64,000 nucleotides of DNA from positions 124,001 through 188,000 of the forward strand of contig NZ_CP072350.1 in assembly GCF_018127965.1 (NCBI RefSeq), read 5' to 3'. Shown one piece after another: positions 8,622 to 60,481 of the stretch (its first letter is position 1; every line of letters begins with the position of its first letter). Source of the DNA: Prevotella melaninogenica (lineage in GTDB: Bacteria > Bacteroidota > Bacteroidia > Bacteroidales > Bacteroidaceae). Position numbers and translations under genes: made by a program. The notes beneath the pieces were generated by a model. The model did no database searches. It had not been told where the DNA came from and saw nothing but the letters and a program-made list of their open reading frames with translations.

Positions 8622-8724
8622 AAAAGGGCGTAAATTGGCTTCCAATTAACGCCCTTTTGGCTTGTAAAAGACGCCCTTTTGAGGTCCAAGTAACGCCCTT
8701 TTGAAGGCTTACTAAGCACCTTTT
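8622..8724 (-). repeat. 22-bp-period dispersed repeat array, copy 1 (inverted orientation)
   Basis: Read on the minus strand this holds four units of exactly 22 bp, each opening with AAAAGGTGC or AAAAGGGCG. The same family occurs on the plus strand at 21439, 30503, 43745 and 60372. The left end (8622-8658) forms a near-perfect palindrome in which AAAAGGGCGT and ACGCCCTTTT face each other. It lies in a gap of about 900 bp between genes, with AT-rich sequence and no recognisable gene on its right. Confidence 0.9.
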
Positions 8725-9016
8725 AAAACGCAACTTCGCAACTATCTGATTCTATGCAACTTACAAAGGCTGCCTTTTAGCTCGTTTTTTCGACTTTTAA
8801 AGCCTGAAAGCACGTAATGCTTTGTAAATAAAATTCAAATATCAAAGAAGTATTTTACGACTTTTGTAATCATCAAAAAAAACATTCTACTAAGCAATTT
8901 TATGGTGGTAATGGCGTTTATTACATAAAAGGGCTAAAGACTATAATTCTGTTTTGGTCAGCCTTTTAGGGCATATGCACTTATCCTGATTGTTGATATT
9001 GGTAAATTCGTGAGGT
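8725..9016. other. AT-rich intergenic remainder
   Basis: This stretch between the 22-bp array and the next gene contains no open frame that I can support. It probably includes the promoter of the small lipoprotein gene at 9017, but no clear TAnnTTTG element could be assigned. Confidence 0.4.
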
Positions 9017-9391
9017 ATGAGATACTACTTACTTTCTATTCTCTTGTCAGTTTTGCTCGCTGCTTGCGGCAGAAACGATGGACCCGTTTATCCCAAAGAC
9101 TTCATAGGGAACTGGGCAGGTGTGGAAAAGACAGACATTGGTATATATCCAATCCTTGAAGTGACGGATTCTACCGTTGCATACGACCCAGGCATAGGCG
9201 ATACTTGCAGGTGGTTTAATAGTTATCACTTTGTGAACGACTCGCTTTTTTTAGTCTATGAGGAAAAAGATACCAACCGTTGTAAGATCATAGAGCTACA
9301 CGATAGCATACTGATTATCAAAGGCTTGCCATGGAACGAGGAGAAAGCAGTTAGCTTTGTACAGCAAAAAGGAGGGTCTCCAAGACTTTAG
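9017..9391 (+). CDS. Small lipoprotein of unknown function, C-terminus altered by a MITE
   Basis: The 124-residue product has a lipoprotein signal (VLLAAC, Cys at about residue 17) and a short polar mature domain containing FIGNWAGVEKTDIGIYPILEV, which resembles small lipocalin-like lipoproteins of Bacteroidota (weak resemblance only). The last five or six residues and the stop codon fall inside the left terminal repeat of the MITE that starts at about 9374. The original C-terminus may therefore have been longer or different. Confidence 0.65.
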   Translation: MRYYLLSILLSVLLAACGRNDGPVYPKDFIGNWAGVEKTDIGIYPILEVTDSTVAYDPGIGDTCRWFNSYHFVNDSLFLVYEEKDTNRCKIIELHDSILIIKGLPWNEEKAVSFVQQKGGSPRL

Positions 9392-9718
9392 AGTGATAAG
9401 GTTTGCTACTTAAGGTTAGGTTTCTGAAGAAATGTCACACGGAGGGACGGAGAGGACGGAGGGATATCAAAGCAAAGCAATGAAAATAACGGAAGCACCG
9501 TCGGTGCATAGAGCAACGGAGGTTGTTTGCACACTTTTTTAGCAACTTTATGCCCAAAGCATTTATCCCAAAAGTTATCAAGAATCTGTAGGCTACACCT
9601 CCGTCGCTCTTTGTGCCGTAGGCACCTCCGTGACATAGCATTACCTCCGTCCCCTCCGTGACTCCGTGTGCCTATTATATATGACTTTTAGTTTATCACT
9701 CCATCTTTCGGAAGAACA
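9374..9718. mobile_element. MITE copy A with ISL3-like ends
   Basis: This element of about 345 bp is non-coding. Its ends resemble those of the ISL3 element at 741-2054: the right end, reverse-complemented, reads GTTCTTCCGAAAGATGGAG followed by TGATAAAC. Inside are two nested inverted-repeat pairs built from CACGGAGG and CCTCCGTG motifs. The flanks aaaaagga (9366-9373) and aaaaaaga (9719-9726) match at 7 of 8 positions, consistent with an 8-bp target duplication. Copy B at 30025 aligns along its whole length. Confidence 0.85.
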
Positions 9719-9749
9719 AAAAAAGATAAGTAACGTAACTAAAAACACC

Positions 9750-10262
9750 CTATTCATTTACAACAACTCCTTTATCCAAGTTTATTGTAAGCCTCTTACG
9801 CTCCTTTCCAAGGTCCTTCAGGAACTTAAATTTCACTCTATAGTCTTCACGAGTAATCCCTGCAACGCCCTTTTGATAGATGACTCTATAATATGAAAAT
9901 AAAGCAACATCCGCCATCAAAACACCCTCTTTCTTATAACCTAAGTATTGCTGAAAATAGGAGTCAAAGGGAAGAAAATCATCCTGATGCCTATGAATAT
10001 ACTTCCTTACGACAGCTTTAGCGAGTTCAAACTCTTTATCATTCAGTTGCTTTGGAACCTCTGTTCTAATCTTACCAAACAACGAGTCGCCATTAGCCGT
10101 TACCGCTTTCTCGGAAATAACATTGTATATTTTTTGCCCCGTCTCATCCTTTGCGTAGACATACACAGTATCATATGGAGAATGAACGGTTGTTACTTTT
10201 CGCTTCTCTGTTGTGCAACTGAGTAGAAGGAGACAAGAAAGGATAAGTAGTATAGTCTTCAT
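9750..10262 (-). CDS. Lipoprotein of unknown function
   Basis: The 170-residue product has a lipoprotein signal (LLLLSC, Cys at about 16). The mature part is polar, with a predicted beta-rich start (VHSPYDTVYVYAKDETGQKIYNV) and a helical middle (ELAKAVVRKYIHRHQDD). I recognise no family. Its start lies 9 bp from the stop of the upstream lipoprotein gene (10272-10820), so the two are probably cotranscribed and may act together at the envelope. Confidence 0.65.
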   Translation of the reverse strand: MKTILLILSCLLLLSCTTEKRKVTTVHSPYDTVYVYAKDETGQKIYNVISEKAVTANGDSLFGKIRTEVPKQLNDKEFELAKAVVRKYIHRHQDDFLPFDSYFQQYLGYKKEGVLMADVALFSYYRVIYQKGVAGITREDYRVKFKFLKDLGKERKRLTINLDKGVVVNE

Positions 10263-10271
10263 ATGCTTCGA

Positions 10272-10820
10272 TTAATTGTTTTTCAACGGAATATCTCCTA
10301 CAAAAATCCATACAGATTGACTCTTTCCGTTCTCTCTTTTCATTAAAGGTGAGAAGATACTATCAGCATTTTCTCGTGTAATGGGATACCGCTTATTCAT
10401 AAACCAAACGACATCCTTCGTGCGATAAAGATTCATTTTAATGTAGGGTTTGTCTGATACATAATAGCCGCCAGACGCCTTTAAGTCCTCACGGTTGGGG
10501 AAGTCTTGCACCAATATTCCCTCTGTCAGTCCCTCACTTGTTATGGTATGCGAGAGGACTCCATCGGTATATACCCATCCACGTAACAGTGTAAAGAACT
10601 TATTTCCGATACCTATTGGAGCCGTGTTGAAGTCGTAATCTTCACATTCCATGATGACTATATCGTCCTTGAACGCCTTTAGATGTTCCCTCTGGTCAGG
10701 AAAATGAAATACTGCGACACCTGAATCCTTCTGCACTTCAGCCGTCTTTGTCTTGCAGGCAGTCAGTAGAAAGAAAAGAAAGAGCAGTGTTAGGGCTGTT
10801 TGATATCGTTTCATACGCAT
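10272..10820 (-). CDS. Lipoprotein of unknown function
   Basis: The 182-residue product begins with a long hydrophobic stretch (LLFLFFLLTAC), giving a lipobox Cys near residue 22. The mature domain is soluble and mixed alpha/beta; I recognise no family. A -7-type promoter motif (TATCTTTG on the minus strand, 10869-10876) lies about 50 bp upstream, so this is probably the first gene of a two-gene lipoprotein operon. Confidence 0.65.
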   Translation of the reverse strand: MRMKRYQTALTLLFLFFLLTACKTKTAEVQKDSGVAVFHFPDQREHLKAFKDDIVIMECEDYDFNTAPIGIGNKFFTLLRGWVYTDGVLSHTITSEGLTEGILVQDFPNREDLKASGGYYVSDKPYIKMNLYRTKDVVWFMNKRYPITRENADSIFSPLMKRENGKSQSVWIFVGDIPLKNN

Positions 10821-10868
10821 CGTTGTTGTTCGTTTGTAGTGTTCGAAAATAGGTGCTATTACCTACGC

Positions 10869-10876
10869 CAAAGATA
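10869..10876 (-). promoter_or_regulatory. Bacteroidota -7 element for the lipoprotein pair
   Basis: TATCTTTG on the minus strand matches TAnnTTTG and sits about 50 bp before the ATG at 10820. Confidence 0.5.
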
Positions 10877-10926
10877 ATAAAAGTTTTGCAGACAACAATG
10901 TAATTCTACTGATTTTCAGCCATAAA

Positions 10927-10961
10927 AGAAAAATCTTCTTCACCCGAAAGAATGAAGAGGA
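10927..10961 (-). terminator. Probable terminator of the SemiSWEET gene
   Basis: On the minus strand CTCTTCA and TGAAGAAG flank a loop of about ten bases and are followed by ATTTTTCTTTT. The stem is short and imperfect. Confidence 0.5.
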
Positions 10962-10985
10962 CGCACATTTTATATTGTTTTGAAC

Positions 10986-11246
10986 TTACAATGCAGTGAA
11001 AGCAGCTACAAAACCAAAGATGATACCCGGTGTGTTAGCAATCGCCAAAGGCCAGTCACGCTTCTCCTTGAACAATCCGTAAGCAACCCACAAGGTACAG
11101 TTTACACCTGCCATAAATGGCTGAATGAAGGTTCCCTTCTGCCCTGCTAAGTTGTTCTCTATCTGTGGGAAATAGAAGACATACATTAAAACTGATGTTA
11201 CCATACCAATCCATCCCATAGATGTGAAGAACTTTTCTTTTGTCAT
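10986..11246 (-). CDS. SemiSWEET-family sugar transporter
   Basis: This 86-residue protein has three hydrophobic segments (about 9-27, 40-57 and 66-85) and the PQ-loop signature FYFPQIENNL in the first helix. That is the single triple-helix bundle of bacterial SemiSWEETs, which dimerise to move small sugars across the inner membrane. The conserved inter-helix region CTLWVAYGL matches the MtN3/SWEET pattern. It is probably a separate small unit, with a weak terminator at 10927-10961. The substrate is not predictable from the sequence. Confidence 0.82.
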   Translation of the reverse strand: MTKEKFFTSMGWIGMVTSVLMYVFYFPQIENNLAGQKGTFIQPFMAGVNCTLWVAYGLFKEKRDWPLAIANTPGIIFGFVAAFTAL

Positions 11247-11306
11247 AATTGTATTTATTAATTGTTATCTATAAACTGAACGACTATTATCCTATGTGGT
11301 TAATCG

Positions 11307-11612
11307 TTATCTATCTTGTAAACCAGTGTTATCCTTACCAATGCAGAAAAGGATTAAGATCATCAACCATGGTGTTCCCAATAAGCTAAAGAGGAGCCAT
11401 AAAGCAATGCTTCTGTTTCTCTTTCGTGCCATCATGGCAACAATAATGTAACCAATGACACAGAAAAAACCAATAATAAGCAAGGTACTGAAAGCAATTG
11501 TGCCCCCTAAAACTCTCGATGCCATGTCTTGTGCACCCTGATTATTGATAGCAAAAGCCGACAACGCCATGAGCATTGACGCACTTGATGCGAGTAATCT
11601 CTTTGAAATCAT
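11307..11612 (-). CDS. Small membrane protein of unknown function
   Basis: The 101-residue product has an N-terminal signal-like segment (LLASSASMLMALSAFA). A hydrophobic helix follows (about 38-60), then a basic stretch (MMARKRNRS) and a second helix (about 70-92). The pattern suggests an inner-membrane protein with a short cytoplasmic loop. I recognise no family. A -7-like motif (TACCTTTG, minus strand, 11641-11648) lies about 30 bp upstream of the ATG. Confidence 0.6.
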   Translation of the reverse strand: MISKRLLASSASMLMALSAFAINNQGAQDMASRVLGGTIAFSTLLIIGFFCVIGYIIVAMMARKRNRSIALWLLFSLLGTPWLMILILFCIGKDNTGLQDR

Positions 11613-11640
11613 CCTTTGAAACTTTAATTATATCTGCGCA

Positions 11641-11648
11641 CAAAGGTA
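11641..11648 (-). promoter_or_regulatory. -7 element for the small membrane protein
   Basis: TACCTTTG on the minus strand fits TAnnTTTG, 29 bp before the ATG at 11612. Confidence 0.5.
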
Positions 11649-11720
11649 ATCTTTTCAAATCAGAAAACTATCTTTTATGTATAAAAGTTATTTATTTATA
11701 TTGTAAAAGAGGTGTTTTAT

Positions 11721-14411
11721 CTAATTAAAATACTTTTGAATACTATCCATTAGGGGTGTCAAATCACGATTGAAAACCCTTCCATGACGGTCAACCCTCT
11801 GCAGAGCATAGGCTATGAAAAGCCTACGTTTAGCGCGTGACATGGCTACATAGAACTTACGAGCATCTTCTTCGTCTTGCTGTTTCGTCGTGTTATAGGC
11901 GTTCGGGTAGCGCCCATCGGCTGCATCAAAGATGATAACATTATCAAACTCCAGTCCCTTTGCCTTGTGAACGGTCGTCACATAGATGCGCTCAAGAATA
12001 CTCTTACTATTGCAGAAGTCGGCTTCTTTCAGCGTATTAATATCCATTACATACTGCGAGAGCTGTGGTGCAAGGGCATTAGCTACCGTCTCATCCGCCA
12101 GCATATCTATGCGGAGATAACGGAGGATATAGTCTAATCGGGGAATATCATTGATTAAACCATCTGAACGAAAGGCATTATAAGCAGCAGAGAGCTCGCT
12201 GACAAGGGCTGGCTCATGGTCGGCTGATAGTTTATAAAGTCGGTTGACAGCCTCTCGATAGCATTCGCCATAATTGCTACGCAGCACATTGGCAAAGGGT
12301 TTCACCTTCGGATGACGGATGAAAGCCGCTTGCTGTGCTTGCTTCTCACGAGCTTTCTCAGCACAGAGGCTCACAAGACTGACCGTTGCCTTCACATCAT
12401 CAATTGCCTGATGACTATTAACACCTGCCAAATGGAAGGTTTCAAGTAGGCTTTCCAACTTATAAGAATGAAGGCTCGGAACCAATAGTCTTATCAGTTT
12501 GAGCGAGTCAAAGCAACGAGTATCATGTGCCTGCATCGTGTCATTGCAGTAACGTTGCAGATTATTATCCAATATGTTGTAATCGTAATTGGCGTTATGA
12601 CCGAGGATAGGACTGGTCCCAACGTAGGCAAGGAAACGCTGTAAGGCTTCAGAAGGAGAGAGTAATTCGCCAGCAGACATCTTCTCATGATAGATAGCAT
12701 ACATCGGATTCTCCTTGTCTCCGAGCATTGGTAGAATAGGTTTATCGGTTTCAATGTAGAGATCAAGTGGTTCGCCAACCACATCCCCACCCTTTATTCG
12801 GATGGCAGCTATCTCTATAATGTCATCTTGAAAGACATTCAAGCCCGTTGTTTCAGTATCGAAGACAACGATTTCTTCCTCGTTGTAGGCACGAAGAAAC
12901 TCTGCCGTATAACAGCTTTCGAGATAGAGAAGGAAGTCGGATGGCGATAGTGCCAACTGCTTTAGCTTCCAATTAAATCGGCGAGCAAGGGCATGAGAAG
13001 GGAAGGCACGCACCCCTTTCATGATACGTGTCCACGCTATAGAATTATATTCATTGGAGAGTACACTCAAATGTGCCAACAACAGCTTGACATCTGGTGT
13101 ATCGAAGAGATCGCGACCAGACACCTTAAAGTGGGTCAGACCTGCTTCCGTCATAGCTTCACTGATACGATCAGCATCCGAATTAGCACTGACGATGACG
13201 GCTGTACGCTCCTCCTTATTCTGCTCATAAAGGGAGAGTGCCTCAGTGGTAATATCCTTGTGTTCAGCTTCTATCGTACTGCTATGTATGATTCTCAAGT
13301 CACCCGACGTAGCCTTAGTGTCATTATCGGAAAGAGGGAGCAGTTCGCGATCTATCTTCAGTTGCTTTTCTGCATAGTCATTGAAGACATCGAGCAAGTA
13401 TTTTGGCGAACGGTGATTACGCTGTAGATGATGAATATTACCCTTACAGCGCATCTTCAAGAGGGTTAGTGTTTCCACTTTCGCCCCCATAAAAGAGAAG
13501 ATAGCCTGCTGTTCGTCACCTAAGTACATCACCATTGGCTTGTCTTCTGCTGTCAGTAGGTCGATGATAGCAAGCTGCATACCGTTAAGATCCTGCACCT
13601 CGTCCACTTGTATCCACGGATATCGCTTGCAAGTAGGGTCAGAACGATAGATATCGTAAGTATAGAGCAGTAGATCTTCGAAGTCGAAGAGGTGATTCTC
13701 CTCCTTGTATCGAGCGTAACAGCCAGCGTAATACATCTTCCAAAGCAGTACACGAATCCTATCTGCCGTCTTCCCATCAAGCCCTGGCGCATTCGCCTCG
13801 TCCATGTATTCCTGTGCATGATGATAGATATTCACTACCGCCTGCTCGTCGTATTCTATCTTTTGTGAGGCACAGATATGCTTTACTGCTTCTCGATCAT
13901 CATCCGTGAAACTCTCTGGATGAAGGTAATACTTCCATGGGTGCTGGTGTTCCAGCTGATAGATGAAATGCTGAAAGAAGATAATCGTCTGATAACCTTT
14001 GTATCGGTTGAAGTCTCTTGTCACTCCTTCCTCATCTTCGTTGCGATAATCAGCGATAATACTCACCGCCTCTTTGTCGTCAATGATAGCTGAGTCGGCT
14101 GGTATCCTACCCTGTTCAAACAGGAACTTAGAACAGAAACGATGCACATTACCCACCATGAGTTCAGAGAAATCACCTCCCACAACCTTCTGAATACGGT
14201 TGGTCATCTCTCTTGCAGCACGGTTTGTGAACGTAAGACAGAGCATATCCTCATACTTCACACCCCTTTCTCGTGCGTATCTTATCCTCTCTGCGAGGAT
14301 ATGTGTCTTACCACATCCTGGCGATGCAAGCACAAGATGGTATCCCTGACTTGCCTCAACGACAGGAATCTGATATTTATCTAAACTTGATGTGCAATTG
14401 TTTTCTCCCAT
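11721..14411 (-). CDS. UvrD/Rep-type helicase with embedded DEDDh 3'-5' exonuclease domain
   Basis: The 896-residue protein carries superfamily-1A helicase motifs: Walker A ASPGCGKTH (about 29-37), motif II VDEVQD (about 270), LQRNHRSP, motif V TTVHKAKGLEFDNVIIFD (about 805) and motif VI YVAMSRAKRR. Between them, at about 512-685, sits a DnaQ-like exonuclease with ExoI VFDTETTGLN, ExoII LGHNANYDYNIL and ExoIII HQAIDDVKATVSL, so all four DEDD acids and the catalytic His are present. It probably unwinds DNA and trims 3' ends in repair. Its promoter faces away from the DUF6155-like gene. The insertion point is inside the second helicase half, so the helicase core is split in the primary sequence. 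Confidence 0.9.
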   Translation of the reverse strand: MGENNCTSSLDKYQIPVVEASQGYHLVLASPGCGKTHILAERIRYARERGVKYEDMLCLTFTNRAAREMTNRIQKVVGGDFSELMVGNVHRFCSKFLFEQGRIPADSAIIDDKEAVSIIADYRNEDEEGVTRDFNRYKGYQTIIFFQHFIYQLEHQHPWKYYLHPESFTDDDREAVKHICASQKIEYDEQAVVNIYHHAQEYMDEANAPGLDGKTADRIRVLLWKMYYAGCYARYKEENHLFDFEDLLLYTYDIYRSDPTCKRYPWIQVDEVQDLNGMQLAIIDLLTAEDKPMVMYLGDEQQAIFSFMGAKVETLTLLKMRCKGNIHHLQRNHRSPKYLLDVFNDYAEKQLKIDRELLPLSDNDTKATSGDLRIIHSSTIEAEHKDITTEALSLYEQNKEERTAVIVSANSDADRISEAMTEAGLTHFKVSGRDLFDTPDVKLLLAHLSVLSNEYNSIAWTRIMKGVRAFPSHALARRFNWKLKQLALSPSDFLLYLESCYTAEFLRAYNEEEIVVFDTETTGLNVFQDDIIEIAAIRIKGGDVVGEPLDLYIETDKPILPMLGDKENPMYAIYHEKMSAGELLSPSEALQRFLAYVGTSPILGHNANYDYNILDNNLQRYCNDTMQAHDTRCFDSLKLIRLLVPSLHSYKLESLLETFHLAGVNSHQAIDDVKATVSLVSLCAEKAREKQAQQAAFIRHPKVKPFANVLRSNYGECYREAVNRLYKLSADHEPALVSELSAAYNAFRSDGLINDIPRLDYILRYLRIDMLADETVANALAPQLSQYVMDINTLKEADFCNSKSILERIYVTTVHKAKGLEFDNVIIFDAADGRYPNAYNTTKQQDEEDARKFYVAMSRAKRRLFIAYALQRVDRHGRVFNRDLTPLMDSIQKYFN

Positions 14412-14446
14412 AGAAAGTATTCTTTATAGCAATAGATGCTCCTCCT

Positions 14447-14455
14447 GCAAAAGTA
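14447..14455 (-). promoter_or_regulatory. -7 element for the helicase-exonuclease gene
   Basis: TACTTTTGC on the minus strand matches TAnnTTTGC, about 36 bp before the ATG at 14411. It is divergent from the element at 14520. Confidence 0.55.
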
Positions 14456-14519
14456 AGAAAAAGATTGGAAATAACTCGTTATCAACCTAAAAGAATAGAA
14501 ATAAAGTTGTAACTTTGTG

Positions 14520-14527
14520 CGTAGCAA
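14520..14527 (+). promoter_or_regulatory. -7 element for the DUF6155-like gene
   Basis: TAACTTTG matches TAnnTTTG, about 43 bp before the ATG at 14570. Confidence 0.55.
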
Positions 14528-14569
14528 CTTTATGTTACCAACAAACACTAATATGGAGAGGACTCTGAT

Positions 14570-15091
14570 ATGACCAAATTAAAACTAAAGAAGCATCTGG
14601 CAGTACTACCAAAGGAAGACGTAATGAACCTTGTGTTGAGTCTGTATGATGCAAGTGCAGAAGCGAAGATGTATCTGGAAATGTATCTTACGCCTGATTA
14701 TAGTGCTGCTTTAGAAAAGTACAAAAAGATTATTCGCAACGAATTCTTCCCTGATCGGGGCTTTTCTGATAAGCCTTCATTTGCAACTTGCCGCAAGGCA
14801 ATCTCCGACTTCAAGAAGTTGAAGGCTGATGCCGTTAGTCTTGGAGATTTAATGCTTTACTATATAGAATTGGGATGTGAATATACAATGACCTTCGGTG
14901 ATATGTGGGAACAGTATTATACTACATTAGAAACGAATTTTGAGAAAGCTCTAAAGCATATTTCCGACCACAACCTTGAGGAACATTTCAGACCGAGAAT
15001 TGAAAGTATGCTTAATTCAACACAATGTGGTTGGGGCTTTTCCGATACCTTATGGGATATGTACTATGACTATTATGGTTGTCAAGAATGA
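14570..15091 (+). CDS. DUF6155-like protein
   Basis: The 173-residue soluble protein is mostly alpha-helical. It opens with KLKLKKHLAVLPKEDVMNLVLSLYDAS and ends with a Trp- and Tyr-rich tail (GWGFSDTLWDMYYDYYGCQE). It resembles the small DUF6155 family of Bacteroidota (recalled resemblance, not searched), whose function is unknown. It is divergent from the helicase-exonuclease gene, with about 160 bp between the start codons holding two back-to-back -7 motifs. The following exonuclease gene is on the same strand 86 bp away and may be cotranscribed. Confidence 0.65.
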   Translation: MTKLKLKKHLAVLPKEDVMNLVLSLYDASAEAKMYLEMYLTPDYSAALEKYKKIIRNEFFPDRGFSDKPSFATCRKAISDFKKLKADAVSLGDLMLYYIELGCEYTMTFGDMWEQYYTTLETNFEKALKHISDHNLEEHFRPRIESMLNSTQCGWGFSDTLWDMYYDYYGCQE

Positions 15092-15176
15092 ACAAAGAGA
15101 GTTTGTCTAAACAAACATAGAGCCTCATTTATAGATTTAAGATGTAGCAAACGACTAACAAATTTATAAAGAAACT

Positions 15177-15668
15177 ATGCAGGATTTTGCAGCGATTGAC
15201 TTTGAGACAGCTAACTTTGAACGGTGTAGTGTATGCTCGGTGGGCGTGGTGATAGTAAGAAGAGGAGAGATTGTTGACAGTTTCTATTCGCTTATACAGC
15301 CCGAACCGAATTACTATCATTGGCGATGTACGCAGGTTCATGGGCTTACGTGTGCAGATACTGACGGTGCACCCGTATTCTGTGAGGTATGGAAGCAGAT
15401 AGAACCAATGATTGAAGGCTTACCACTTGTAGCCCATAACGCATCTTTCGACAAATCTTGTCTGAAGGCATCCTTCTATACCTACCAAATGGATTACCCT
15501 GATTATGAGTTCCTTGATACACTGAAGGCTGCACGACGCCACTTCCCTCACCTCCCCGACCATCAGTTACATACGGTTTCTTCAGCCTGTGGCTATGAAC
15601 TAACCGACCACCATCACGCCCTCGCAGACGCTGAAGCTTGTGCATGGATAGCAAGAGAAATATTGTAG
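15177..15668 (+). CDS. DnaQ-like DEDDh 3'-5' exonuclease
   Basis: This is a single-domain exonuclease of 163 residues. ExoI is FAAIDFETAN (Asp and Glu near residues 7-9), ExoII is VAHNASFDKSCL (about 85-96) and ExoIII is HHALADAEACAW (about 145-157), with His and Asp in place. Such proteins resemble the DNA polymerase III epsilon proofreading domain but act as free-standing nucleases. The length is a minimal catalytic core without a polymerase-binding tail. It lies near the helicase that carries a second exonuclease of the same superfamily, which may reflect a shared DNA-repair role (inference). Confidence 0.85.
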   Translation: MQDFAAIDFETANFERCSVCSVGVVIVRRGEIVDSFYSLIQPEPNYYHWRCTQVHGLTCADTDGAPVFCEVWKQIEPMIEGLPLVAHNASFDKSCLKASFYTYQMDYPDYEFLDTLKAARRHFPHLPDHQLHTVSSACGYELTDHHHALADAEACAWIAREIL

Positions 15669-15812: not shown

Positions 15813-15868
15813 CTTTATATAAAGTCACCATTATATTTATATAAAGTCATCATCGTCTTTATATAAAG
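15813..15868. repeat. Three palindromes at 22-bp spacing
   Basis: The 12-bp palindrome CTTTATATAAAG occurs at 15813 and 15857, with the one-mismatch variant ATTTATATAAAG at 15835. The starts are exactly 22 bp apart, joined by similar spacers (tcaccattat, tcatcatcgt). This is an operator-like layout, but no gene start lies close by. Confidence 0.75.
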
Positions 15869-16130
15869 AGGATGTCAATAATAAGGCTCGCACCCCTCTT
15901 CAACGAACGTACAGAGCACCCGCACATGTTGTGCTAAGGCTCCGAACATATAGTGTTAAGGCTTAATAGTAATCTTATTAGACAATGACTACATAAAAGA
16001 ACATTATTGATACGAATACACTATGACGTTAGAAAGAAGTTAGGATAGCCTTAGGGAGTGAGAAACATCTGAAAGATTCGGGGTTATCCGTTATCAGAGA
16101 CGAATCATTAAGCAGAATAGAGAGAGACGA

Positions 16131-21103: not shown

Positions 21104-21438
21104 CCGTAGTCGTATTAATGAACCTATAACTACAAAACAAGTTTGTTTTTAGTTTCCTGTCACTTTTAACATTTAAGGTTATATCATTGTAGGATAGCCT
21201 GTTAAGCATCTAAAAAGAGTGACGACAGTGACAGGAAACGTAAACTTTAATATCTTTTTCTCTCCCCTTACCCAAAACCCAAGCCAGTAATTAGTGTGCC
21301 TCTGTGTAAGACATGTCCAAAAACAAAGAAATTTATTTACAAAACGTTCGAAGAAAAGGTAGAAAAATGGGGTAAACATGAGATATTTTAATACCTACGC
21401 AAGTTACTTGTTTTCAAATAGTTGCAAAGAGGCAATCC
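21104..21438. other. Intergenic stretch without a recognised gene
   Basis: This AT-rich sequence after the metallo-hydrolase stop contains the short direct repeat gtcactttt / gtgacaggaaacg (about 21158-21240). No coding region or terminator is evident. Confidence 0.4.
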
Positions 21439-21526
21439 AAAAGGTGCTTAATAAGGGTTCAAAAGGGCGTTAGTAAGACCTCAAAAGGGCATCTTTTGCA
21501 AGCTAAAAGGGCGTTAATTGCAAGCC
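21439..21526 (+). repeat. 22-bp-period dispersed repeat array, copy 2
   Basis: Four consecutive 22-bp units begin AAAAGGTGCTTAAT, AAAAGGGCGTTAGT, AAAAGGGCATCTTT and AAAAGGGCGTTAAT, followed by a decayed fifth unit. They match the unit order of the copies at 30503 and 43745. Confidence 0.9.
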
Positions 21527-21680
21527 TTTTGATGGTCTTTAAAAAATCAATATGTGAAAAATTCGGACAAAAAGGATTTTTCAGAAGTTTGGATTGACAA
21601 GCTCTGCTTTTTGTGTTTAGGATATTAGAAATATCCCACAGAGCAAATCTATGTTTCTTGCTTCAAACTTAGAGTTGCAC

Positions 21681-23157: not shown

Positions 23158-23277
23158 AGACTCTTGGGCATATTTGCCTTAGTGGGCTTATTTGCCCAAT
23201 TAGGCTAATGGGGCTAATAAGCCTAATATGCCCAATAAGGCTAATAAGGCTAATAACAACAACTAAAAGAAAAGTTT
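23158..23277. repeat. GGCTAATAAG microsatellite-like spacer
   Basis: Short units such as gggctaataa, gcctaatatgcccaat and ggctaataaggctaat alternate in both orientations. The same kind of sequence is at 60570-60715. Confidence 0.75.
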
Positions 23278-30371: not shown

Positions 30372-30502
30372 AAAAAAGTATCGTTAACTGCGAAAAATAT
30401 TGACACAAAAACATTAGAAAACTCTCTAAAAAAGCCCCAAAAAGCCTCTTTCCGACACCTTTGTAACCCTCAGAGAATCAAACACTTGCAAAACGCGAAA
30501 GC

Positions 30503-30612
30503 AAAAGGTGCTTAATTGGACTCCAAAAGGGCGTTAGTTAGACCTCAAAAGGGCATCTTTTGCAAGCCAATTAGGCGTCTTTAAGAAGCTAAAAGAGCAT
30601 CTTTTAAAAAGC
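30503..30612 (+). repeat. 22-bp-period dispersed repeat array, copy 3
   Basis: Five consecutive units of exactly 22 bp begin AAAAGGTGCTTAATT, AAAAGGGCGTTAGTT, AAAAGGGCATCTTTT, AATTAGGCGTCTTTA and AAAAGAGCATCTTTT. This is the clearest copy and defines the period. Confidence 0.93.
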
Positions 30613-30725
30613 ATGTTGTGAATTTATTTTACATTAATCACAAAAACTACAATTCCTATAACTCCGCTCTAATAAAACTTTGCAATATATTTATTCAAAT
30701 AGTTGCGCCGTATTGAATATTATTA

Positions 30726-43000: not shown

Positions 43001-43014
43001 ACGCTAACCTTTGA

Positions 43015-43410
43015 ACATTGAGGTTTGAACTTTGAACTTTATAATTTGAACTTCAAACAACTACGAATGGCACTAATGACACGAATGCTTATTGCTAAGT
43101 GATTCGTGCAATTTGCGTAATTCGTAGTCCCTTTGAATTTAAGGTTTGGACATTGAACTTTATAATTAGGACTACGAATATTGAACGACTACGAATGGCA
43201 CGAATGCTTATTGCTAAGTGATTTGTGCAATTTGCGTAATTCGTAGTCCCTTTGAATTTGAGGTTTGGACATTGAACTTGATAATTAGAACTACGAACAT
43301 TGAACAACTACGAATGGCACTAATGACACGAATGCTTATTGCTGAGTGATTCGTGCAATTTGCGTAATTCGTAGTCCCTTTGAATTTGAGGTTTGAACAT
43401 TGAACTTGAT
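43015..43410. repeat. Tandem minisatellite, units of 119-128 bp, three copies plus a partial
   Basis: The marker atttgcgtaa starts at 43111, 43230 and 43358. Units contain ctacgaatggcac, cgaatgcttattgct and gtagtccctttgaattt. The length difference is a 9-bp block (taatgacac) that is present or absent. Open frames on the minus strand through it are repeat artefacts. Confidence 0.9.
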
Positions 43411-43437
43411 AATTAGAGTTTATAGCTTTGAGATTTC

Positions 43438-43586: not shown

Positions 43587-43744
43587 TGTTAACCATTGAT
43601 GTCTGAACTTTAAATCCTAATGTTTGCTATCTTGAAATATAATTACAAAATAGATAAATAAAAGTCAGGTAAAGAGCCAGAAAACCTACGGTTTTTACGC
43701 CTTTCTAAGTTATTTGATATCAGCGAATTACTGAGATGCTTTTC

Positions 43745-43854
43745 AAAAGGTGCTTAATTAGCCTTCAAAAGGGCATTAGTTAGACCCCAAAAGGGCATCT
43801 TTTGCAAGCCAATTAGGCGTCTTTTAGAAGCTAAAAGAGTATCAATCAAAAACG
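43745..43854 (+). repeat. 22-bp-period dispersed repeat array, copy 4
   Basis: Five units of 22 bp begin AAAAGGTGCTTAATT, AAAAGGGCATTAGTT, AAAAGGGCATCTTTT, AATTAGGCGTCTTTT and AAAAGAGTATC. They are nearly identical in order to copy 3 at 30503. The array sits at the border of the AT-rich ATPase/HNH island. Confidence 0.92.
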
Positions 43855-44061
43855 AGCATTTGAAAAATAATGACAAAAGAACCCCTCCAAGTAAAGAGGG
43901 GATGTAAACACCATAAACAGATATAAGAGTTATTGATGGTTCATAAAAAAGAAAATACAATAAGACTCTGTTTATGGTAATTCAAGCATTCTTAAATATA
44001 AGCCAAAATTTCAATCCATTAAATAGTTGCTATTTAAAAACTATTACTTTGGCTCTCTTAT

Positions 44062-49318: not shown

Positions 49319-49320
49319 AA

Positions 49321-53697: not shown

Positions 53698-53705
53698 TAG
53701 TTTTG
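53698..53705 (+). promoter_or_regulatory. -7 element for the tamB-like gene
   Basis: TAGTTTTG fits TAnnTTTG and ends 8 bp before the TTG start codon, implying an almost leaderless transcript. Confidence 0.55.
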
Positions 53706-53713
53706 TAGACGCA

Positions 53714-56700
53714 TTGAAGAAACTTAGAACAATTATACGATGGGTTATATGGACCATAGCGGGTCTTTATATAACCACAATCGTACTGCTGCACATACCA
53801 GCAGTACAGGGTTTCCTTGCCCAAAAAGTAGGCGACGTAACGGGCAACAAATTGGGTACAGAAGTACACGTAGGACGCATTGATTTAGGCTTTATCAATC
53901 GCTTCGTATTAGACGATATTCTCATCTATGACCAAAGTCACAAGAAGATGTTATCGGCATCACGTGTAGGAGCAAGGGTCGATATCTGGCATCTCTTACG
54001 TACAGGTGAGATTAATATCTCCTCTGCACAGCTTTTTGGTTTGCGGGCAGAACTATACAAAACAAGCAAGGATGCCAAACCTAACTTCCAATTTATATTG
54101 GATTCATTGGCATCTAAGGATACCACAAGTCACACCCCTTTACACTTGTCTATTAATAGTCTTGTGATTCGACATGGCAGCATTAAATACGATTGTTTAG
54201 ATGTACCTACCACGGCTAACAGACTGAATCTGAACCATATCAACGTAAGTGAAATCTCGTCTTATCTCATTCTTAATAAGTTGGACGACACGAGTGTGTG
54301 GGCTGACCTTAGGGCATTGGCTTTCAAAGAAGCATCAGGCTTAGAGGTGAAGCAGTTGGCTTTTGAATTAAAAGCTAATCAGCAGCAAGCCACATTACGT
54401 GACTTTATCTTCGATGGAACTAACAGTAAGATTGCGCTAAAGGAGTTATTTACGACCTACAAGTTCAATAACAAGAATTTGGATTTCAACACCTTATGCT
54501 ACACTATCAAGGACTTCAAAGCCGCAATAAAGCCTTCCGACTTTGCCCCTATCCTCCCCGAATTAAAGCCATTGACGACCAACTATACTGCTACAGTTGA
54601 TGCAGAAGGTACAAGTCAATCTGTGTTGGTAAAACATCTTAATGTCTCTGACCAAACTCTTTCAACCCAAATTAAGGCAAAAGGATGGGTAAGAAACATC
54701 CAAAAGAGTCCTGTTTGGGACTTTACTTTCAGTCCACTGAAGGTTAGCAAAAACACCCTTCAAACCATCACCAAGGTTACGCATAAACCCCTCCCTAAGC
54801 CATTGAGTAACATTGGCAGTATCTACTATCGTGGTACCTTCGCACATAACATGGGGAAATACATAGCAAAGGGACTGTTAAACACAGATGCTGGCAACGT
54901 TCAGTTGGCTACTGTTATTCACGGAAAGAACATCCAAGGAACGGTTAGCACTACCGAATTGAATCTTGCGAAAGTACTTGACAATAACGACTTTGGCAAG
55001 TTAAGCACGAATATCAAGGTGGAAGGTAATACCGACCTATCCTATATCGCCGCAAAGGGAGACGTTTCCTCCTTCTATTATAAGGGCTATACCTATAAGA
55101 ATATCCATCTTGACGGAATCTATAAGAACGATATTTTCACAGGTAAGGCAGCAATTAACGACCCTAATGGAAAGCTGAATGTTGACGGAAAAGCTGCCAA
55201 CATAATGGCTTTCATGCAACACAAAGGAAAACTGTCTACCGACATCTCAATCATTGCTGATGCCGTCAACTTACACAAACTTCAGCTAACAGAGGCGTTG
55301 GGCAATAGAACAATCTCCTTTACTTCTAAGATTAAAGGACAGGGTGCAAGCTTGAATGATATCATAGGAAACCTTGATGTCAGCAACTTTGCTATGACTG
55401 GAGAAGGTCAGAACATTATCCTTAACCAGGTAAGTATCAAGACAAACAACGGACTCTTGGGTAAGTCGCTTGACGCAGAGACTGACTTTGGTGAGCTACA
55501 CCTCGCTGGACAGTACGATTATAACCAACTCCCACAAAGCATAAGACGTATCTTAGGGCATTATATCCCAAGCCTTTTCCCACCAACTCCACGCTTTAAC
55601 ATGGGTATTGGCAAGGCAAACTACGCTTTCACTTTGCGCCTAAATGACACAAAGTTTATCAATAGTTTGCTGAATACTAATATTGTTTCTTCACATGCTA
55701 TAAGGCTCGCAGGACTTGTAAGGGAACGCCAGAACGAAATAGACTTACACGTCAATGCGCCTGATGTAATCTACTCAGGACACCAGATAAAGAATCTCGT
55801 CTTGAATATTAAGAGTGAGCCACAAGGCTTGCAGACCAGTATTTCTGGTGAACGAAAGGGAGAAACAGGACCGCATATCCTTATCAATGCACAGGGATTG
55901 ATTGCAAACAATACGGTTAATTCCAACATTTCTTTCCGTATACCGGGACTTTCTACTATATACGGAAATGTCAATAGCATTGCCTCTTTCTCACGTCGTC
56001 ATGGCGACTTGGAGACTCGCTTGCACCTCAACCCATCGGAAATCAACTTTGATTCTATTGCGTTACAAGTGCAACCTTCCGATATCTCTTATCATCAGAA
56101 CAATCTTACCATCGACCATTTTGAACTTTCCAACCACGACCAGCATATCATTGCTAATGGTCAGACGTCTGGAAATCAAAGCGATTCTATCCTTGTAAGA
56201 TTCAAGGATGTCAATGTTCCATATATTCTTAACCTTGTTGACTTCCAAAGCGTTAAGTTTGCTGGTACGGCTTCTGGTACAGCTTCTATCAAGTCGTTCT
56301 TCCATCATCCACAGATGCAAGCGAAACTGGAGGTGCAAGACTTCCAATTTGAAGATGGAGATATGGGTACGCTCTTTGCGGAAGCAAACTATAATGACAA
56401 AGAAGGCAAGATTAATATCGACGCCTATGCTGACCCTGGTGATGGCACACGAACAGACATCCAAGGCTATGTGGACATTAAGAAAAGCTATATCAACCTC
56501 CCTATCTTTGCCAATAACACGCATCTCTACTTCCTAAAGAGTTTCTGTGGCTCTTTCATGGACAAGATTCAAGTGCAAGGAAACGGCTGGTGTAAAGTCG
56601 TCGGACCCCTTAGTGCCATCAATCTTGAAGGTGACATGCAAGTGCATGGAAGCGTATATGTAAAGCCAACAGGTGTTACCTATAAGATGCGCGACGCACG

Positions 56701-58186
56701 GGTTCGCATCATTCCAAACGAAATTATCTTTGGAAATGACACCATTACTGACTCACAAGGACATATCGGTATCGTTACAGGTGGATTACATCACAAGAAT
56801 CTTAGCCACCTCACTTTCGACATCAATATCCTTGCAAGAAACCTCTTAGCCTATAACTTCCCTAAGAAACAAGGGAAAGACTCGTTCTGGGGTGTAGTAT
56901 ATGGAACTGGCAAATGTAATATAAAAGGTGAACCGGGTTCAACAACAATGAACATTGATATGGAACCGGAAAAGAACACCTATATAACTTATGATGCCTC
57001 TTCGACCAATGATGCAAGTACAAGTAACTTCATTCGCTGGATTAACGTACCAAAGGATAGCACTGGAGTTTTAATCCCTGAGGCTGCGGACACACTCAGT
57101 TTTGCGGCAAAACCAGCTCCTAAGAAGGCATCAGATATCGTCAAATTCAGAGACATACCGAGCGACCTACACATCAACTTCCTCGTACATTCAAATCCAA
57201 ATCTTACGCTTGGTGTCTTACTTGATGATGCCACTGGCGACAATATCCGTCTGAATGGTTCGGGTATGATTCGTGCGTCCTATTATAATAAGGGAGCCTT
57301 CCAACTCTTTGGAAACTATAACGTAGACTACGGACAGTACAACCTCACGATTCAGAATATTATCAAGAAGCAGTTTATCTTCCAGCCGGGTTCAACGATT
57401 GCCTTCGGTGGCGATCCGTTCAATGCTGCGTTGAATCTTAAAGCCAACTATATCATCAATTCTGTTCCTTTGGGCGACCTTGGAATGGGTAAGTCCTTCA
57501 CATCCAATAACACAAAGGTTAACTGCTTGCTGAACATCGAAGGAACGCCAAGCGCACCGACCGTTTCTTTCGGTCTCGACCTCCCAACGCTCTCGCCCGA
57601 TGCACAACAGATGATACGCTCTATCCTCAACTCTGAGCAAGAGCTTAACCAGCAAGTACTCTATCTTTTAGCAGTCGGACGCTTCTATCCACAGAGCAAG
57701 AATAACAATCCAGCACGAGATAGTGAATCGCCAAGTCGTGCATCTCTTGCTATGCAGAGTCTACTCTCTGGTACGATTTCACAACAAATCAACACCGTGT
57801 TGTCCAATGTTGTGAAGGATAACAACTGGAACTTCGGTGCCAATATTGCGACAGGTAATGAAGGTTTCGACAATGCAGAATACGAAGGACTACTCTCAGG
57901 AAGCATGCTTAACAACCGTCTGCTCTTCAACGGACAGTTTGGTTATCGAGACAATGTAGCCAAGGACAAATCATCCTTCATAGGCGACTTCGACATTCGT
58001 TACCTCCTCTTCCCAAGCGGTAACGTAGCCTTCCGTGTCTATAACCAAACCAACGACCGTTACTTCACACGTAACTCTCTGACAACGCAGGGTATAGGCT
58101 TGATTCTGAAGAAAGACTTCAACAGATTGAGCGATATTTTCGGAAGTAGAAAGAAAAAAACAAAAAAACAGAAGCAAAAGCACTAA
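53714..58186 (+). CDS. TamB-like translocation and assembly module protein (DUF490)
   Basis: The 1490-residue protein has one N-terminal membrane anchor (about residues 6-28). A very long beta-rich region with repeated short strands follows, and the TamB/DUF490 C-terminal domain covers about 1080-1460 (GSTIAFGGDPFNAALNLKANY, LNSEQELNQQVLYLLAVGRF). Such proteins span the periplasm as a hydrophobic groove and move lipids or help insert outer-membrane proteins. The start must be the TTG at 53714, since the next in-frame Met would remove the membrane anchor. The C-terminus is strongly basic (KKKTKKQKQKH). rpsA follows from its own promoter. Confidence 0.88.
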   Translation: MKKLRTIIRWVIWTIAGLYITTIVLLHIPAVQGFLAQKVGDVTGNKLGTEVHVGRIDLGFINRFVLDDILIYDQSHKKMLSASRVGARVDIWHLLRTGEINISSAQLFGLRAELYKTSKDAKPNFQFILDSLASKDTTSHTPLHLSINSLVIRHGSIKYDCLDVPTTANRLNLNHINVSEISSYLILNKLDDTSVWADLRALAFKEASGLEVKQLAFELKANQQQATLRDFIFDGTNSKIALKELFTTYKFNNKNLDFNTLCYTIKDFKAAIKPSDFAPILPELKPLTTNYTATVDAEGTSQSVLVKHLNVSDQTLSTQIKAKGWVRNIQKSPVWDFTFSPLKVSKNTLQTITKVTHKPLPKPLSNIGSIYYRGTFAHNMGKYIAKGLLNTDAGNVQLATVIHGKNIQGTVSTTELNLAKVLDNNDFGKLSTNIKVEGNTDLSYIAAKGDVSSFYYKGYTYKNIHLDGIYKNDIFTGKAAINDPNGKLNVDGKAANIMAFMQHKGKLSTDISIIADAVNLHKLQLTEALGNRTISFTSKIKGQGASLNDIIGNLDVSNFAMTGEGQNIILNQVSIKTNNGLLGKSLDAETDFGELHLAGQYDYNQLPQSIRRILGHYIPSLFPPTPRFNMGIGKANYAFTLRLNDTKFINSLLNTNIVSSHAIRLAGLVRERQNEIDLHVNAPDVIYSGHQIKNLVLNIKSEPQGLQTSISGERKGETGPHILINAQGLIANNTVNSNISFRIPGLSTIYGNVNSIASFSRRHGDLETRLHLNPSEINFDSIALQVQPSDISYHQNNLTIDHFELSNHDQHIIANGQTSGNQSDSILVRFKDVNVPYILNLVDFQSVKFAGTASGTASIKSFFHHPQMQAKLEVQDFQFEDGDMGTLFAEANYNDKEGKINIDAYADPGDGTRTDIQGYVDIKKSYINLPIFANNTHLYFLKSFCGSFMDKIQVQGNGWCKVVGPLSAINLEGDMQVHGSVYVKPTGVTYKMRDARVRIIPNEIIFGNDTITDSQGHIGIVTGGLHHKNLSHLTFDINILARNLLAYNFPKKQGKDSFWGVVYGTGKCNIKGEPGSTTMNIDMEPEKNTYITYDASSTNDASTSNFIRWINVPKDSTGVLIPEAADTLSFAAKPAPKKASDIVKFRDIPSDLHINFLVHSNPNLTLGVLLDDATGDNIRLNGSGMIRASYYNKGAFQLFGNYNVDYGQYNLTIQNIIKKQFIFQPGSTIAFGGDPFNAALNLKANYIINSVPLGDLGMGKSFTSNNTKVNCLLNIEGTPSAPTVSFGLDLPTLSPDAQQMIRSILNSEQELNQQVLYLLAVGRFYPQSKNNNPARDSESPSRASLAMQSLLSGTISQQINTVLSNVVKDNNWNFGANIATGNEGFDNAEYEGLLSGSMLNNRLLFNGQFGYRDNVAKDKSSFIGDFDIRYLLFPSGNVAFRVYNQTNDRYFTRNSLTTQGIGLILKKDFNRLSDIFGSRKKKTKKQKQKH

Positions 58187-58204
58187 TATACAGAATATTA
58201 TTCG

Positions 58205-58213
58205 TAACTTTGC
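58205..58213 (+). promoter_or_regulatory. -7 element for rpsA
   Basis: TAACTTTGC fits TAnnTTTGC, 81 bp before the rpsA ATG, leaving a leader of about 75 nt. Confidence 0.65.
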
Positions 58214-58294
58214 ACCCGATTTGGGCGAACTACGCCCATATTACAGGTAATATAAAGTCGAACTTTATTAATTAAATTATTTTTTAAACACTTT

Positions 58295-60079
58295 ATGACA
58301 AATTTCAAAGACGTCCAGAATGTACAGCCTTTAGCTGACTTCAACTGGGATGAGTTCGAGAACGGCGCACACGCTGAGGCAAGTAAGAACGAACTTACTA
58401 AGGCTTATGACGAAACTCTTAACAAGATCCAGGAACACCAGGTAGTTGAAGGTACTGTTATTTCAGTTGACAAGAAGGAAGTAGTTGTTAACATCGGCTA
58501 CAAGAGCGATGGTATCATCCCTGCTTCTGAATTCCGTTACAACCCAGAGCTCAAGGCTGGTGACAAGGTAGAGGTTTATGTTGAGAACCAGGAGGACAAG
58601 CGCGGTCAGCTCGTTCTTTCTCACAAGAAGGCTCGCCTCCAGAAGAGCTGGGAGAATATCAACAAGGCACTGGAGAACGACGAGGTTATCCAGGGTTACA
58701 TCAAGAGCCGCACTAAGGGTGGTATGATTGTTGACGTATTCGGTATCGAGGCATTCCTTCCAGGCAGCCAGATTGACGTTCATCCTATACGCGACTACGA
58801 CGTATTCGTTGGTAAGACAATGGAGTTCAAGGTTGTTAAGATTAACCAGGAGTTCCGTAACGTAGTCGTTTCACACAAGGCACTCATCGAGGCTGAGCTC
58901 GAGGCACAGCGTAAGGAGATTATCTCTCACCTTGAGAAGGGTCAGATCCTCGAGGGTACTGTTAAGAACATCACATCTTACGGTGTATTCGTTGACCTCG
59001 GTGGTGTTGACGGACTCGTACATATCACTGACCTCTCTTGGGGTCGCGTAAGCGATCCACATGAGGTTGTTGCTCTCGACCAGAAGATTAACGTTGTTAT
59101 CCTCGACTTCGATGAGGAGAAGAAGCGTATCGCTCTTGGTCTCAAGCAGCTCACTCAGCACCCTTGGGATTCTTTGGATCCTAACCTTAAGGTTGGCGAC
59201 CACGTTAAGGGTAAGGTAGTTGTTATGGCTGACTACGGTGCATTTGTAGAGATTCAGCCAGGCGTAGAGGGCTTGATCCACGTTTCAGAGATGAGCTGGA
59301 GCCAGCACTTGCGTTCTGCACAGGAGTTCATGAAGGTTGGTGACGAGGTTGAGGCAGTTATCCTCACACTCGACCGCGACGAGCGTAAGATGTCTCTCGG
59401 TATCAAGCAGCTCAAGGAAGACCCATGGGAGGCTATCGAGGTTAAGTATCCAGTAGGCTCTAAGCACATCGCAAAGGTTCGTAACTTCACTAACTTCGGT
59501 ATCTTCGTAGAGCTCGAGGAAGGTGTTGACGGTCTTATCCACATCAGCGACCTCTCTTGGACTAAGAAGGTTAAGCACCCATCTGAGTTCACTTCACAGG
59601 GTTCTGAGATTGAGGTTGTTGTTCTCGAAATCGATAAGGAGAATCGTCGCTTGAGCCTCGGCCACAAGCAGCTCGAGTCTAATCCTTGGGATGAGTACGA
59701 GGCAATCTACACTCCAGGTTCAATCCACGAGGGTAAGATTACCGAGTCTATGGACAAGGGCGCTGTTATCACTCTCAGCGAGGGTGGTGAGGGCTTCGCT
59801 ACTCCAAAGCACCTTGTTAAGCAGGACGGCACACAGGCACAGCTTGGTGAGGTTCTCCCATTCATGGTAATCGAGTTCGTTAAGGACACTAAGCGTATCA
59901 TCCTTTCTCACTCTCGTACATTCGAGGAGGTTAAGGAAGAGCCACGTCGCCAGCGTCCAGCAGCTCAGAGCAAGCCAAAGAATGACGCAGCTGCTATCAA
60001 CAACGTTGCTGCTGGTACATCTCTCGGTGACCTCGGTGTTCTCGCTGACTTGAAGAAGAAGATGGAGGGTGGCAAGTAA
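58295..60079 (+). CDS. rpsA: 30S ribosomal protein S1
   Basis: The 594-residue protein helps mRNA bind the 30S subunit. Consecutive S1 (OB-fold) domains are visible as repeated lines such as GTVISVDKKEVVVNIGYKSDG, GTVKNITSYGVFVDLGGVDG, GKVVVMADYGAFVEIQPGVEG and AKVRNFTNFGIFVELEEGVDG, each followed by LIHISDLSW-like text. I count about six domains, the last ones more diverged, and a low-complexity tail (about 555-594). Codon use is strongly biased toward a small codon set, as expected for a highly expressed gene. Confidence 0.96.
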   Translation: MTNFKDVQNVQPLADFNWDEFENGAHAEASKNELTKAYDETLNKIQEHQVVEGTVISVDKKEVVVNIGYKSDGIIPASEFRYNPELKAGDKVEVYVENQEDKRGQLVLSHKKARLQKSWENINKALENDEVIQGYIKSRTKGGMIVDVFGIEAFLPGSQIDVHPIRDYDVFVGKTMEFKVVKINQEFRNVVVSHKALIEAELEAQRKEIISHLEKGQILEGTVKNITSYGVFVDLGGVDGLVHITDLSWGRVSDPHEVVALDQKINVVILDFDEEKKRIALGLKQLTQHPWDSLDPNLKVGDHVKGKVVVMADYGAFVEIQPGVEGLIHVSEMSWSQHLRSAQEFMKVGDEVEAVILTLDRDERKMSLGIKQLKEDPWEAIEVKYPVGSKHIAKVRNFTNFGIFVELEEGVDGLIHISDLSWTKKVKHPSEFTSQGSEIEVVVLEIDKENRRLSLGHKQLESNPWDEYEAIYTPGSIHEGKITESMDKGAVITLSEGGEGFATPKHLVKQDGTQAQLGEVLPFMVIEFVKDTKRIILSHSRTFEEVKEEPRRQRPAAQSKPKNDAAAINNVAAGTSLGDLGVLADLKKKMEGGK

Positions 60080-60107
60080 TTGCACACTAAACCATAAAAT
60101 AAATAAT

Positions 60108-60144
60108 AAAGTACCAAACCTTCGCGGGTTTGGTACTTTTTTTT
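60108..60144 (+). terminator. Rho-independent terminator of rpsA
   Basis: AAAGTACCAAACC and GGTTTGGTACTTT form a 13-bp stem around TTCGC-G and run into eight T residues. Confidence 0.93.
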
Positions 60145-60371
60145 GGCTCTACCGAAATATAGTGTGAGAAACTAAGGTACTTCATGAAAAGGCTTACAGA
60201 GTAACTTTGAACTTCTAATAAGAACTAAATCAAAAGACTAAAACCTTTCTTTACGGCTATGAAAATTAATTACAAAAACTTAGAACTTTTACACCTAAAA
60301 ACATAGAAAAAGGAGGATTATAAGTAAGCGTGCAACGTATTGAGCATCAAGTCGTTATTAAGTAGCATTTC

Positions 60372-60481
60372 ACAAGGTGCTCTTTAAGCCTTCAAAAGGG
60401 CGTCTATTGAAGCCTTAAAGAGCACCTTTTGTAAGCCTGTTGGGCATCTTTTAGAAGGCAATTAAGCATTAATTGGGAAGG
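60372..60481 (+). repeat. 22-bp-period dispersed repeat array, copy 5 (most diverged)
   Basis: Five 22-bp units begin ACAAGGTGCTCTTT, AAAAGGGCGTCTAT, TAAAGAGCACCTTT, TGTTGGGCATCTTT and AATTAAGCATTAAT. The phase is kept although the sequence has drifted. Confidence 0.8.

Follow-up and report, generated by a model that had tools for sequence, protein, structure and literature searches.

The five arrays of 22-bp units in the window (the whole stretch of 64,000 nucleotides analysed here, G000:C2:124001-188000, in a genome of 3.2 Mb on two contigs) are copies of one intergenic repeat of 250 bp that is present in well over a hundred places. The same 22-bp step recurred in repeats of unrelated sequence, both in this genome and in other Prevotella, a hint that this DNA is bound or built by about two helical turns at a time. 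In our estimate there is an even chance of a class of intergenic arrays in Prevotella, and in some Bacteroides, whose common feature is an exact 22-bp step and not the sequence, with several unrelated, lineage-specific unit families per genome in the same phase.

Table 1. Copies of the repeat and other period-22 features in the window (positions from the first letter of the window).
Feature	Position	Strand	Basis
Copy 1, whole element of ~250 bp	8594..8838	-	Profile match and units; array about 8615-8724
Copy 2, whole element	21328..21572	+	Profile match and units; array 21439-21548
Copy 3, whole element	30390..30632	+	Profile match and units; array 30503-30612
Copy 4, whole element	43632..43880	+	Profile match and units; array 43745-43854
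Copy 5, whole element, most diverged	60258..60503	+	Profile match of 115 bits; array 60372-60481
GAAAAATATTGACA, left edge of copy 3 (a case of the GAAWWTNNTTKACA motif)	30392..30405	+	Alignment
Two more repeats with period 22 and unrelated units: TTTATATAAAGTC.. (about x3), ACATGTTGTGCTAAGGCTCCGA-like (x2)	15814..15967	+	TRF

Structure and copy number of the repeat

All five arrays of the preliminary description were confirmed in the window at their positions, together with the 22-bp spacing and the AAGGTGC of unit one. TRF called the 22-bp period in every array except that of copy 5. The four or five units counted earlier became up to five per array with the last two weaker, and the array, although real, proved to be only the centre of a conserved element of about 250 bp. 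The pattern AAAAGGTGCTTAAT at up to 1 mismatch produced 163 matches in the genome (85 on the plus and 78 on the minus strand) compared to 1 match for the backwards-read control, and A-rich noise as the source of the arrays was therefore ruled out. The column profile of 35 anchored sites showed strong conservation from about 110 bp before the array start to about 135 bp after it, and weak conservation from about 160 bp before it. In an alignment of 30 copies, the edges were GAAAAATNATTACA-like motifs on both sides, both carrying GAAWWTNNTTKACA in the same orientation. The layout is an edge motif, a variable leader of about 110 bp, five 22-bp units, a tail and a second edge motif in the same orientation as the first.

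A profile scan of the whole genome and of related genomes, as had been proposed, found at least 150 copies in G000, the genome of the window, and also matches in relatives. Among the G000 matches listed for the 255-column core, the weakest had an E value of 8e-36 and nearly all were 241-253 bp long, with one of 192 bp. The G000 DNA examined with the profile contained 120 distinct matches, 109 of which covered more than 230 columns. None of these 120 copies overlapped an ORF of at least 120 codons, in agreement with the location outside genes described before. Overall, a clade-specific, non-coding, interspersed intergenic repeat of about 250 bp that forms a large family is supported. A profile score of 192 split the 120 copies into 51 of type A and 69 others (non-A); the five window copies scored below 192 and were without an ISL3-type shell.

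Substitutions, gaps and constraint on spacing

Comparison of 14 ortholog pairs between G000 and G169 showed that the core was about 91% identical and the flanks 91% and 89% (one of two C1 copies without a flank match was paired by position for this comparison). Taken whole, the element is conserved only as well as its surroundings, so a function, if it has one, allows for considerable change. Within the element, the orthologs had 98 substitutions in 1518 array positions compared to 165 in 1507 leader positions. By phase of the unit, there were 35/907 substitutions in phases 0-13 (block) and 45/513 in phases 14-21 (linker) over 13 pairs (Fisher p 0.0002, with the boundary between block and linker chosen after the unit was seen and the badly aligned pair of window copy 5 left out). 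Between orthologs, the substitution rate of the 14-bp block is below half that of the linker.

The paralog set consisted of 51 of the 52 near-full-span non-A copies retrieved (58 of the 69 non-A copies have such a span), and L023, in which the array is altered, was left out. The paralog array had 0.188 substitutions per site with one gap cell and the leader 0.407 with ten gap cells. Gaps were plentiful in the paralog tail, which had 0.328 substitutions per site and 49 of the 60 gap cells. The paralogs had 60 gap events per 3,677 substitutions overall, and the orthologs 9 gap openings per 98 array substitutions. Since array gaps are scarce in the diverged paralogs compared to the ortholog gap rate, a scarcity that aligner bias and the selection of full-length matches also favour, we read this as a sign of long-term selection on spacing in the array. 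Gene conversion could be another way to keep the units alike. The preliminary description had offered selection for spacing or spread of the whole array as a unit. The few gaps among paralogs and the slower block support selection for spacing; spread is supported for type A only and not for copies of the window type.

The explanation that we favour, and hold to be about as probable as all others together, is that the array would be a same-face binding array for a candidate chromosome-organising or regulatory protein, placed within a clade-specific repeat of which one branch was captured by a MITE. Each unit would consist of a putative recognition block of about 14 bp and a linker of about 8 bp, and the 22-bp step would bring the four to five proteins bound to an array to the same side of the helix. 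Because the step would align the proteins in this way, the element may be a cooperative binding array. The data support the capture of one subfamily by an ISL3-family MITE and its multiplication by transposition. The other period-22 families, with their different units, may be arrays of this kind to which related proteins bind.

Type A copies and their relation to an ISL3-family MITE

Inverted ends were searched as GGTTCTTCCGTTAA on the left and its inverse on the right, with up to three mismatches and within 1,000 bp. Both ends were found at 17, one end at 30 and none at 73 of the 120 matches. The usual distances were about 166 bp on the left and 168, 215 or 234 bp on the right. At these distances, type A copies, whose ends are GGTTCTTCCGTTAAATG.., had both ends in 13/51, one in 21/51 and none in 17/51 (34/51 with at least one). 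For the non-A copies, 66/69 had no ISL3-type end at the type A distance and 3/69 had the right end only. Three of the window copies had no inverted ends and the other two had a distant left match (661 and 407 bp) with no right one. A target duplication of 8 bp, exact and abutting, was present in 5 of 20 end pairings from G000 and G169 stretches, two of which share one right end; two more had 7/8, one shifted by a base, and in the rest it was imperfect or absent.

No parent IS was found inside the 20 end pairs, where the longest frame was 61 codons. An ISL3-family IS of about 1.3 kb with a 406-codon frame and the ends GGTTCTTCCGTTAAATGGATAGA and GGCTCTTCCGTTAAATGCGTAGA was identified in G371, and the IS ends GGYTCTTCCGTTAAATG were present in all four G371 loci examined. 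G000 produced ten ISL3 matches; in the four loci examined, the end was GGTTCTTCCGGAAT, which is related to that of the MITE without being identical, and no pair of MITE ends was present. From the inverted ends at fixed distance, the 8-bp duplications of some copies and the IS with matching ends, we conclude that type A descends from an ISL3-type MITE containing the core. Type A resembles ISL3-family MITEs in all three features, whereas the window copies do not, and the core also exists without MITE ends.

Distribution in related genomes

Among 299 genomes of the genus, the AAAAGGTGCTTAAT pattern had at least one match in 171, a number at the level of the reversed control, and was abundant only in G000 (163), G169 (149) and G148 (44), followed by a genome with 8. 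Two genomes outside this sample, G371 (in part) and G333, had a copy at most about 1 kb away from dnaB. A profile scan of 60 genomes showed matches in 14, G000 included, with few strong matches outside G000. On C1, 13 G000 copies were far enough from the ends for comparison with G169, and 9 of them were at the same place, 2 were not and 2 had no flank match. In the window, four copies had a positional counterpart in G169 and copy 2 had none, its place being occupied by other DNA. Copies 1 and 3 had a G169 copy at the syntenic place. The counterpart of copy 4 was just past the end of the syntenic block, and the automatic flank test found no flanks for it; that of copy 5 was at the matching place and alignable only poorly. 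Elsewhere on C2, synteny with G169 was short and few copies were comparable. We infer that the element became common in an ancestor of the Prevotella melaninogenica-type clade and that most copies are now passed on at fixed places.

The preliminary description had also proposed to look for empty flanks in sister strains. Two type A copies were missing from G169, but the adjoining intergenic DNA differed too (about 876 compared to 18 bases and 1,289 compared to 28 bases), so neither is a precise empty site, and the comparison of G000 with G169 showed none for any non-A copy. A search with one copy and one exact pattern found no match in phages or plasmids, and spread by these was rejected.

A purely selfish repeat could account for these results, although we consider it a rather unlikely explanation. 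The element would be moved by some enzyme that reads the edges and the array, spacing would be constrained only in active masters and inserted copies would drift. The link of type A to a true MITE, the many copies within one clade, the drift of the core at the rate of its flanks between G000 and G169 and the lineage-specific units, as in REP families, are all consistent with it. However, it predicts equal rates for block and linker in inserted copies, and the block was slower. The shared positions on C1 and the lack of an empty site for non-A copies also argue against it, as does the lack of a Y1 transposase (PF01797) in G000 and G169, a family that 6 of the 26 genomes searched do encode. Finally, unrelated families with the same period would need the same mover.

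Placement among genes and RNA structure

Placement was counted with genes taken from simple ORF calls. The non-A copies (n=69) were between tandem genes in 40 cases, convergent genes in 19 and divergent genes in 10; for type A (n=51) the numbers were 20, 17 and 14. In two G000 stretches, convergent neighbours were found at 12 of the 38 intergenic regions with the element and at 11 of the 61 regions of at least 300 bp without it. A strong gene-orientation rule was rejected on these neighbour counts. The element occupies 38 of the 99 intergenic regions of the two stretches that either bear it or reach 300 bp, and it could therefore affect chromosome structure and regulation, as well as genome assembly, in bacteria that are common in the mouth and gut.

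The structured RNA suggested earlier, here taken as a transcribed RNA or bidirectional terminator with units pairing as tandem hairpins at gene 3' ends, is improbable and was rejected on covariation shuffles and Rfam negatives. AAAAGGTGC is able to pair with GCRYCTTTT, G-U variants fit one strand, and some excess of convergent neighbours was seen. Pairing was possible in 91.6% of cells compared to 41-59% when the partners were slid, as expected for a consensus-derived structure. However, 368 of 500 column shuffles paired at least as well and the compensatory pairs were matched in 413 of 500, and no Rfam family matched the window at gathering score. The only match of copy 3 was sub-threshold (E 0.05) and outside the element. 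In addition, copies occur in both orientations relative to genes, and tandem hairpins do not require an exact 22-bp step.

A 22-bp period without shared sequence

The element family lies 3' of dnaB in G000 and G169, and at this place G026 and G003 have arrays of period 22 built of another unit, AAACGTACCTCCGTTTTTGGTA. Lag-22 matches in these arrays were 70/88 in G026 and 54/88 in G003, with at most 40 at the other lags from 19 to 25. Both arrays stand behind GAAATATTCTTTACA or GATATATTCTTTACA, an edge motif resembling that of the element. G407 has a third unit at dnaB, around AGATATCT, with 71/88 lag-22 matches. The G026 unit is dispersed: 58 matches were counted in G026 and 44 in G003, but none in G000, and the controls did not exceed 1 per strand.

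For non-coding arrays at lags 12-60, 18 Prevotella genomes were scanned, each represented by a single stretch of 20 kb. The scan produced 20 arrays, 14 at lag 22 (four of them from the single genome G099), 3 at lag 44, 2 at lag 41 and 1 at lag 27, and 11 of the 18 genomes had an array at lag 22 or 44. The stretches were chosen blind except for G218, which includes a dnaB locus whose period-44 array had already been seen; without this array, 14 of 19 were at lag 22 and 2 at lag 44. Mononucleotide shuffles of the same stretches gave no arrays. Other Bacteroidales families (580 kb, of which 60 kb is non-coding) had single arrays at lags 23 and 56 but no array at 22 or 44, and 50 kb of E. coli had no arrays at any lag. 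At 80 dnaB loci, mostly from Prevotella and some from Bacteroides, 8 of 12 arrays were at lag 22 and one at lag 44. In a threshold-free self-match, lag 22 came out highest for the two Prevotella-rich sets (z 6.1 and 5.4) but not for the other families.

With the main family masked in 854 kb of G000 and G169, 24 of the 48 remaining non-coding arrays were at lag 22 and 8 at lag 44 (21 and 5 of 42 at a stricter setting), not all of them independent events because the two genomes share synteny. Ten of the masked lag-22 arrays were of the GCACCATTGGTGC type, nine of the TTTTCATGAAAA type, three were simple repeat and two were others. Stretches of G148 entered the period counts only. A period common to unrelated units is supported by these counts. 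Four units were present in 15 of 25 such arrays, four being also the minimum of the scan. Dyad symmetry had p <0.05 in 13 of the 25 consensus units (combined p about 1e-10 if arrays from one genome are counted as independent), while no significant dyad was found in the G000 unit taken whole. Mean unit identity in the 25 arrays was 0.71-0.90 and most were degenerate, while a few had perfect units.

There is only a slim chance that the step is a trace of array making, in which duplication with a 22-nt step leaves a finished array without function: the identical period of unrelated units within and between genomes and the few arrays with perfect units are consistent with it, but finished arrays show constraint at the level of sites, most are degenerate, and we know of no duplication process with a 22-nt step.

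If the proposed class exists, it would mark a hitherto unknown chromosome-wide DNA-binding system or array-building process with a ruler of two helical turns. A step that outlives its sequence would be a handle on such a system and predicts phase-dependent binding. No description of a 22-bp array class in Prevotella was found among the open-licence papers that the literature searches ranked highest.

Comparison with known repeats

Plasmid iterons, which are bound by proteins and located at a single origin in each replicon, likewise consist of direct repeats of about 22 bp, whereas the element here is in a hundred intergenic places. REP/BIME families are species-specific palindromic intergenic repeats with RAYT transposases. 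They share with the element the many intergenic places and species specificity (PMC3733652), but the array here is head-to-tail with a fixed 22-bp step, and the lack of the Y1 transposase in G000 and G169 ruled out a REP/RAYT identity.

The closest known systems are PINSR and BrickBuilt. The earlier statement that no named family matches holds for sequence as far as this is searchable, but PINSR (PMC4755523) is a close counterpart and the period is common to unrelated repeats of the genus. PINSR of P. intermedia is described as 188 bp long, compared to about 250 bp here, with 177 and 184 copies in two strains and about three quarters of the regions common to both. By its description, it is likewise non-coding, intergenic, high in copy number and apparently clade-restricted. 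It is without terminal inverted repeats, as are the non-A copies but not type A, and the section describing it mentions no internal period. PCR-positive species were intermedia, nigrescens, falsenii and disiens, with melaninogenica not among the lanes. Clade-specific intergenic repeats of about 180 copies are thus on record in Prevotella without an ascribed function (PMC4755523).

The BrickBuilt MITE of Porphyromonas gingivalis is reported with 19 copies, a 23-nt unit and ends nearest to the IS5-family ISPg1/ISPg9, and tandem repeats of 22, 23 and 41 nt were noted in strain W83 (PMC4596501). As described there, it is similar in its intergenic location and in having a leader and a tail around tandem repeats whose unit is of comparable length, and it shares with type A the inverted ends in common with a full-length IS. 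It differs in the unit (23 nt compared to 22 bp) and in the inverted ends, which are like GAGACCTTTGCA compared to GGTTCTTCCGTTAAATG in type A; the window copies have same-orientation edges and no inverted ends. Finally, a guess at the PINSR sequence, TTATCTAAGCTTAGATAA, was found in G108 at 19 places that fell into about seven groups.

Other repeats and an ISL3-family transposase match

A single intergenic region of the window holds two further period-22 repeats, and one of these is a member of a second dispersed 22-bp family, which is also present in the relative G169. Outside the window, two adjacent period-22 arrays whose palindromic units differ between them lie behind dnaB in stretch L176, and a strong period-23 array with 62/66 matches was observed in L294, a stretch of a genome from another Bacteroidales family (G053). 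The period of the latter equals the length of the 23-nt unit of BrickBuilt, a MITE of Porphyromonas gingivalis.

An 86-bp tandem repeat closely adjoins copy 1 of the element, and a 119-bp one adjoins copy 4. The GGCTAATWAGG-like repeats of the window also occur close to certain elements elsewhere, e.g., in stretches L003 and G0C1 (near 83,900).

A domain search of the source genome produced 10 PF01610 matches, 9 of them with an identical score.

Coordinates of the repeats and the 404-codon frame
Feature	Position	Strand	Remark
404-codon frame	window 744-1958	-	overlaps ISL3-family transposase match at G000:C2:124789-125502
86-bp tandem repeat beside copy 1	window 8130-8522		4.6 copies, 91% (TRF)
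Two period-22 repeats	window 15814-15967
GGCTAATWAGG-like repeats	window 23185-23256 and 60573-60714		TRF
119-bp tandem repeat beside copy 4	window 43008-43417		3.3 copies, 87% (TRF)
Two period-22 arrays	L176:4441-4662
Period-23 array	L294:9648
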